Below are positions 49,238-49,528 of a DNA stretch of 64,000 nt, in pieces. This stretch comes from Pseudohongiella sp. O18. Lineage in GTDB: Bacteria; Pseudomonadota; Gammaproteobacteria; Pseudomonadales; Pseudohongiellaceae. The notes below the pieces were generated by a model. The model was given only the letters and a program-made list of their open reading frames with translations. It was not told the origin of the DNA and ran no database searches. Both the position numbers and the translations under genes were made by a program. Where the stretch lies: the NCBI RefSeq assembly GCF_021729085.1, contig NZ_JAJSAR010000001.1, forward strand, positions 310,001 through 374,000, given 5' to 3'. Each line of letters starts with the position of its first letter. Within the stretch, counting starts at the first letter, position 1.

Positions 49238-49261
49238 AAAAAAGGGAGCCGAAGCTCCCTT
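49238..49261 (-). terminator. Intrinsic terminator with UUCG tetraloop
   Basis: On the minus strand AAGGGAGC (49261-49254), loop TTCG, GCTCCCTT (49249-49242) and a run of T continuing to 49238. The C(UUCG)G loop and 6-base U-run make this a strong terminator for transcripts coming from the right, that is, for the small-peptide unit and any read-through from nhaC. Confidence 0.9.
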
Positions 49262-49381
49262 TCCGTGACGCCTGGTTCCAATGGAACCAACTCTTGATTC
49301 GCAAACTACGTGTCATCCGCTTACCACATATTATCGGATGGCTGATGATCCGTTGTCCACTGAGTCAAGAGTGGAGTGTTA
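49262..49381 (-). other. Structured 3' untranslated region of the small-peptide transcript
   Basis: About 120 bases between the 25-residue ORF and its terminator with several small inverted repeats on the minus strand, for example GGTTCC-ATT-GGAACC, TCCACT...AGTGGA and GGAT...ATCC. Long, folded 3' regions of this kind can act as regulatory RNA. No further convincing ORF with a ribosome-binding site is present. Confidence 0.4.
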
Positions 49382-49459
49382 TCAACCCAGCAGGACGTTA
49401 CTTCCTGCCAATTTAATACCACCAACATCCATTGAAACCGTAGCCATATCACTAGACAT
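49382..49459 (-). CDS. 25-residue small protein with very strong ribosome-binding site
   Basis: A 25-residue ORF starting MSSDMATVSMDV and ending AGSNVLLG, followed by TGA. The start is preceded by a 12-base Shine-Dalgarno fully complementary to the 16S rRNA 3' end, with 7 bases between AGGAGG and ATG. A sigma-70-like promoter lies 40-69 bases upstream of the start codon and a strong terminator about 120 bases downstream, so this looks like an independent gene with high translation. The peptide has no cysteine, no aromatic residue, one lysine and no signal peptide; it is mildly hydrophobic at the end. I do not recognise it. It could be a small regulatory protein, a peptide precursor, or the coding part of a dual-function RNA. 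No modifying enzyme is adjacent. Confidence 0.6.
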   Translation of the reverse strand: MSSDMATVSMDVGGIKLAGSNVLLG

Positions 49460-49460
49460 T

Positions 49461-49472
49461 GGATCACCTCCT
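49461..49472 (-). promoter_or_regulatory. Fully complementary Shine-Dalgarno of the small gene
   Basis: AGGAGGTGATCC on the minus strand is the exact complement of the conserved 3' end of 16S rRNA (GGATCACCTCCT). Twelve paired bases is far more than the usual 4-6 and decides the start at 49459. Confidence 0.85.
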
Positions 49473-49498
49473 CTTCTTTCTCAGTTGAACATGGACTC

Positions 49499-49528
49499 AG
49501 AGTAAAACCCGATGCCAAAAGCTGTCAA
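49499..49528 (-). promoter_or_regulatory. Sigma-70-like promoter for the small gene
   Basis: TTGACA (49528-49523), an 18-base spacer, then TACTCT (49504-49499), which keeps T1, A2 and T6 of the -10 consensus. Transcription would start near 49492, leaving a 5' leader of about 33 bases. It is just beyond the nhaC stop codon. Confidence 0.55.

Follow-up and report, generated by a model that had tools for sequence, protein, structure and literature searches.

The unit on the minus strand at positions 49238-49528 of the window (the whole 64-kb stretch of DNA that was analysed) is, judged against its relatives, a free-standing structured mini-mRNA of the dual type and not a classical micropeptide gene. 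We read it in this way because relatives share its reading frame, its ORF length and a pair of long-range helices, P1 and P2, the amino acids beyond an initial MSS are free to change, and the neighbouring genes vary. Comparison of sequences establishes the anatomy of the unit, the covariation of P1 and P2, selection on frame and length, an unconstrained peptide and the lack of a fixed neighbour. Since evolution has kept the fold of the RNA and the length of the frame but not the peptide, it is probably the act of being translated that matters.

Architecture of the transcription unit

The unit sits between two ordinary genes (Table 1). The first-pass annotation had described it as an independent transcription unit with a TTGACA-N18-TACTCT promoter and an ORF of 25 codons, followed by a structured region and, at the end, a UUCG-loop terminator. 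All of these elements are present where they had been placed, and with a promoter and a terminator of its own the unit indeed appears independent. The caveat concerns the -10 box, which is weak by consensus: TACTCT agrees with TATAAT at only three of six positions, and it was missing from the output of a consensus promoter scan. Despite this weak match, TTGACA and the TACTCT-like box are kept throughout the genus, and the transcript likely starts near 49492. The predicted 264-nt transcript folds far better than shuffled sequences (z = -5.36; 0 of 200 shuffles as good).

Table 1. Features of the unit, in window coordinates.
Feature	Positions	Strand	Sequence	Basis or remark
-35 box	49523-49528	-	TTGACA	shared by every aligned member of the genus and by most of the family
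-10-like box	49499-49504	-	TACTCT	18-nt spacer to -35; TACTCT-like box conserved in genus
Extended Shine-Dalgarno (SD)	49460-49472	-	AGGAGGTGATCCA	complementary over 13 nt to the 16S 3' end of the same genome, TGGATCACCTCCT
ORF	49382-49459	-	MSSDMATVSMDVGGIKLAGSNVLLG + TGA	25 codons; frame selected across relatives
Start codon; stop codon	49459-49457; 49384-49382	-	ATG; TGA	sequence
P1 5' strand	49448-49452	-	GUGAU	ORF nt 8-12; covariation analysis
P2 5' strand	49428-49439	-	GGUUUCAAUGGA	codons 7-11; covariation and fold
P3 hairpin	49381-49418	-	UUGGCAGGA...UCCUGCUGG	second half of ORF and stop; predicted, MFE fold
P4, optional large hairpin	49290-49372	-	ACUCUUGA...UCAAGAGU	reduced in length or missing in relatives
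P2 3' strand	49274-49285	-	UCCAUUGGAACC	forms palindrome GGUUCCAUUGGAACC with preceding bases; self-folding possible
P1 3' strand	49265-49269	-	GUCAC	adjoins terminator on its 5' side; covariation analysis
Intrinsic terminator	49238-49262	-	AAAGGGAGC-UUCG-GCUCCCUUUUUU	9-bp perfect stem; counterpart in relatives

Distribution and conserved plan

Of 56 related genomes, 29 gave a match to the unit in a DNA search. Within the genus, 13 of its 14 other members are among these, and the only member without a match is represented by a genome that is 72% complete. The ORF and the SD, whose lack of conservation in close relatives had been named beforehand as evidence against the gene, are both conserved. 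In the genus and its relatives the plan begins with TTGACA, the TACTCT-like box, UUCAACUG, an A-rich stretch and (A)AGGAGGUGAUCCAAUGUC[U/G]AGUG, and continues with a short ORF starting with MSS, a variable hairpin region, GGUUCC[A/G]UUGGA.CC, UCACG and the terminator.

The retrieval pattern GGAGGTGATCCAATGTCNNG has 18 fixed bases, made up of the SD, ATGTC and a single G alone. It matched at least 118 stretches of the genome collection, against about 7 expected by chance. Nearly all of them are ORFs of 18-35 codons with an MSS start, in Alpha- and Gammaproteobacteria. R1, a sequence model built on the 41-nt core, added genomes of Caulobacter, Sphingomonas, Rhodobacter and Mesorhizobium type (51 of 299 in the phylum), and in one Rhizobiaceae-type family 63 of 81 genomes carry the unit, each in one copy. 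The core, the fixed-length ORF, P1/P2 and the terminator are all jointly present in divergent genomes. A phage or mobile origin was rejected, as viral contigs gave zero exact core matches. Copies in metagenome-assembled genome records labelled Klebsiella pneumoniae, Rheinheimera and Rhodoferax (L064, L104, L123) look misassigned; the peptide and SD region of L123 are identical to those of a Pseudohongiella-genus genome (L014).

Reading frame and peptide

The frame set by the start codon is truly under selection. In 79 divergent sequences (less than 55% alike downstream of the core; milder cut-offs agree), codons 5-18 contain no stop in frame 0, whereas stops occur in 41 sequences in the +1 frame and in 31 in the +2 frame. 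The length is fixed as well, with a stop at codons 20-30 in 89% of the ORFs as compared with 12% in the other frames, and all three stop codons are in use. Neither these features nor P1 and P2 had been part of the retrieval pattern.

Selection is thus seen on the maintenance of the frame and not on the amino acid sequence. Residues beyond MSS are essentially unconserved across clades, and pN/pS is near neutral, with a value of 0.68 for the genus and values of 0.77-1.21 for three further sets, so that the excess of synonymous substitutions proposed as a check on the peptide is not found. The motif GGAGCAGCC of the alphaproteobacterial copies lies 52-59 nt from the ATG and is fixed by nucleotide position irrespective of frame: it is read in all three frames (as EQP, GAA and RSS) and falls past the stop in three sequences. 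The Ser3 codon is AGT in 95 of 97 sequences, which likewise indicates a constraint on the bases. That the 25 residues are the purpose of the gene, as the first-pass annotation implied, is thus not supported. A Pfam search with the 25-residue peptide gave no match. The Sphingomonas-type copies L207-L210 share a nearly identical 18-aa peptide (MSHGSAMGSVQFVRETRR) and form the sole clade in which the peptide appears conserved.

A functional micropeptide would consist of the 25 residues, or perhaps mainly of their MSS[D/E/G] start, acting on a cellular target, with the strong SD providing high output. Such a role would agree with the maintained frame and length, with the extreme SD and with the sequence VSMDVGG, which is shared within the genus. 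The Sinorhizobium meliloti peptide SEP1, which is acidic, 23 aa long and conserved in Rhizobiaceae, showed the top translation efficiency of 54 new sORFs (PMC10117765), and the 23-24 aa MSNEIS.. peptides encoded by Rhizobium-type relatives of the RNA are candidate counterparts; homology of SEP1 to the peptide of the unit is plausible, as a lead only. The near-neutral pN/pS, the free residues past MSS and the nucleotide-level constraint on GGAGCAGCC and Ser3 argue against this explanation, and we consider it unlikely.

Complementarity to 16S rRNA

The 12-mer AGGAGGTGATCC at 49472-49461 is the sole mismatch-free copy in the window, for which plain base counts predict about 0.008 perfect copies. 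The 16S rRNA of the same genome contains GGCTGG and has the 3' end GGCTGGATCACCTCCTTAAA, and the complementarity therefore covers 13 nt, i.e., the 12-mer and the next A. The 12-base match to the anti-SD noted earlier is hence confirmed and even one base longer. In alphaproteobacterial copies the complementarity reaches 16 nt, GAAAGGAGGUGAUCCA against UGGAUCACCUCCUUUC, the latter taken from the S. meliloti 16S 3' sequence (PMC6943124). The SD region belongs to the less paired parts of the RNA, with a mean unpaired probability of 0.48 (AUG, 0.62), as compared with 0.27-0.29 for the 5' strands of P1 and P2.

An extended and rather accessible SD could also serve without any translation, as a non-coding decoy that binds the 3' end of 16S rRNA by 13-16 bp in order to titrate 30S subunits, keep them in store or check them; the ORF would then be incidental. 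A pure decoy would have no need for the exclusion of stops in the start-codon frame only, nor for a fixed ORF length, and in Rhizobium variants carrying GGAAGGTGATCC the perfect 16S pairing is interrupted. We therefore regard a decoy as decidedly improbable, the length of the complementarity and the low pairing of the SD notwithstanding.

Some copies differ around the SD. The large-genome Rhizobium-type copies (L244-L249, L252) have GAAAGGAAGGTGATCCAATGTCTAATGAGATT, in which an extra A breaks the SD, and their peptides of 23-24 aa start with MSNEIS. The Hyphomonas-type copies L197 and L198 have an SD-to-ATG spacing that is one base shorter (GGAGGTGATCCATG). In L063 and L163, an SD-complementary element (GGGGCAGCCTCCTTTTC, GGAGCAGCCTCCTTTC) that resembles the 16S 3' end is located past the stop and could pair with the SD of the same RNA.

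Long-range helices P1 and P2

Helix P1 joins ORF nt 7-14 to bases adjoining the terminator, with sequences that are clade-specific: GUGAU:GUCAC in the window, and GUGAGAUU:AAUCUCAC, GAAAG:CUUUC, CAUUGUC:GACAAUG and CACCAAA:UUUGGUG elsewhere. The mean P1 helix score is 12.45, compared with 10.07 when partners are swapped between sequences (sd 0.25; maximum of 200, 10.88). Helix P2 pairs codons 6-11 with the stretch directly 5' of the P1 3' strand, and comprises 12 pairs in the window (GGUUUCAAUGGA:UCCAUUGGAACC). Its energy is -18.3 to -18.5 kcal/mol versus about -11.3 (sd 0.3-0.4) when partners are swapped, whichever redundancy cut was applied, whereas another part of the ORF, taken as a control, gave almost no such pairing signal.

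Within the gamma clade, 92.8% of the P1/P2 cells are paired, as against 32-59% when the strands are slid. Column shuffles reached the covariation score in 7 of 500 cases, and pairs changed on both sides were not above shuffles; because these controls are only moderate, the case for covariation leans on the comparison across clades. The 3' strand of P2 could alternatively form a palindromic hairpin, in the gamma clade only. A simple palindromic 3' hairpin (GGUUCCAUUGGAACC) was rejected, since pairing with codons 7-11 fits better and covaries.

Genomic neighbourhood

The genes around the unit differ from locus to locus, with 119 Pfam families in 100 neighbours and mixed strands; Vut_1 transporter genes recur among them (5 of 100). 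The downstream gene is co-directional in only 43 of 95 loci, and a conserved co-directional downstream gene, which would mark a leader or attenuator, was not found among them. With neighbours so mixed in family and orientation, we conclude that the RNA does not act as a leader. A cis-acting leader peptide or attenuator for the next gene would account for a terminator preceding that gene, and local arrangements of this kind do occur: the RNA is often upstream of dat in the genus Pseudohongiella, and in Rhodobacteraceae-type loci it immediately precedes arfB in the same orientation. With so many unrelated downstream families, attenuation is for the most part refuted at the level of the family and seems hardly probable at all.

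The arfB linkage was noted for L063, L065, L151, L158, L196, L199 and L200, among others. In 19 loci the gene lies within a distance of about 0.25-1.6 kb from the RNA, and by organism label or peptide type every one of these is of Rhodobacterales or Hyphomonas type. The 19 matches in 1.16 Mb of loci compare with about 0.3 expected at one per 4 Mb. The E. coli arfA mRNA carries a stem in its coding region, and ArfA is a conserved functional protein. By analogy, the unit might be a bait or sensor for ribosome rescue, in which RNase III would cut the stem and leave a stop-less mini-mRNA that stalls the ribosomes loaded on it. Like arfA mRNA, the window RNA is a tiny mRNA with a long stem in its coding region, here combined with a very strong SD; it has no homology to arfA, and its cleavage by RNase III is hypothetical. 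The linkage to arfB is confined to the alphaproteobacterial types just named, where it may be ancestral gene order, and in gammaproteobacteria no rescue gene adjoins the unit. A rescue function is therefore very unlikely.

Relation to CC2171 and other known RNAs

At the gathering threshold, an Rfam search of the window and 14 loci left the unit unmatched, and the Caulobacter RNA CC2171 (RF01867) emerged only in relaxed searches. On the window unit the relaxed scan gave 12.7 bits at 49387-49483, which is not significant (gathering cut-off, 75), and because it falls below the curated cut-off we do not file the window copy as RF01867. Among the loci tested, only the Caulobacter-like L205 and L212 reach the cut-off (79.5 and 78.6 bits). 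Other alphaproteobacterial relatives score 27-70 bits, with 28.9 for a Hyphomonadaceae locus, and the intermediate loci form a continuous bridge from 79.5 to 27 bits. Two further matches in the Pseudohongiella genome itself were rejected: L164, which scores better than the unit, lies inside a coding gene and has no SD core, and the core is missing from the lower-scoring L165 as well.

CC2171 and the window unit are both single free-standing genes with a 5' core AGGAGGUGAUCCA[A/G]UGUC (also given as GAAAGGAGGUGAUCCA[A/G]UGUC) and a P1-like helix that links bases shortly behind the start codon to bases shortly ahead of the terminator, with compensatory changes across clades (CAUUGUC:GACAAUG versus GUGAU:GUCAC). 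They differ in that the window unit has its own P2, P3 and P4 sequences, and Rfam files the CC2171 family as a non-coding sRNA. Sequence comparison places the window unit as a distant relative of CC2171, to which it is linked by the intermediate loci, by the core common to both and by an identical P1 topology. The earlier statement that the peptide matches nothing known is in this respect incomplete, as the broader family includes an Rfam sRNA.

Transcripts of relatives have been described. CC2171 itself is catalogued as a Caulobacter sRNA, and MH_s33 of Mesorhizobium huakuii is a 215-nt RNA-seq product annotated as RF01867 (PMC5596092). Its Rfam annotation suggests that it is the same unit, an expressed RNA of the same Rfam family, and Mesorhizobium-type genomes carry the unit with a 23-codon ORF; no ORF was noted for MH_s33 in that paper, and its host belongs to another bacterial class than the window organism. 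A further hint is that two Caulobacter 'ncRNAs', whose names are absent from the text, proved to be translated (PMC4117421).

Among the options of the first-pass annotation, a dual-function RNA comes closest to the present reading, and the peptide-centred ones are unlikely. Spot 42/SpfP, SgrS/SgrT and RNAIII are dual-function sRNAs of regulatory size with a short ORF. The window RNA resembles them in being small and in having a short ORF that looks translated, but its ORF codons build a conserved stem with the 3' region, and its peptide is free while the ORF length is fixed.

Translation as a possible switch input

We favour, at about even chances, a translation-gated RNA switch of which the peptide is largely a by-product, because the exposed SD sits below a stem that the ORF itself forms and the stop precedes the 3' strand. 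The near-perfect SD and the AUG would be exposed where a long stem is open at its base; in this stem, codons 3-11 (P1 and P2) pair with bases just 5' of the terminator and the remainder of the ORF is apical. A ribosome held by the strong SD would have to invade the stem, would translate some 25 codons and would stop short of the 3' strand, thereby freeing it. The RNA would in this way have two states, closed when untranslated and open when translated, and would report on the capacity for initiation or on its own translation; the output would be the freed 3' strand or an altered stability of the RNA. We infer that ribosomes translate the ORF in Pseudohongiella, which the conserved frame supports indirectly, and that the opening is the regulatory event. 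As most ORF codons are predicted to lie inside stable structure, the fold could also block translation altogether.

For the proteobacteria-wide set of stand-alone RNAs, we tentatively propose that the ORF, fixed in length and free in sequence, serves only for opening by the ribosome, and that the RNA may be a trans-acting riboregulator that senses initiating 30S subunits through its near-perfect complement to the anti-SD; we hold this to be possible, though somewhat doubtful.

Implications

The Caulobacter RNA listed by Rfam as non-coding appears to be only a small part of a family that extends across Alpha- and Gammaproteobacteria. Neither length cut-offs nor tests of peptide conservation would detect genes of this kind. 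Selection on the ribosome-binding site, the frame and the length of the ORF, but not on the peptide, points to translation as a physical input of an RNA switch.
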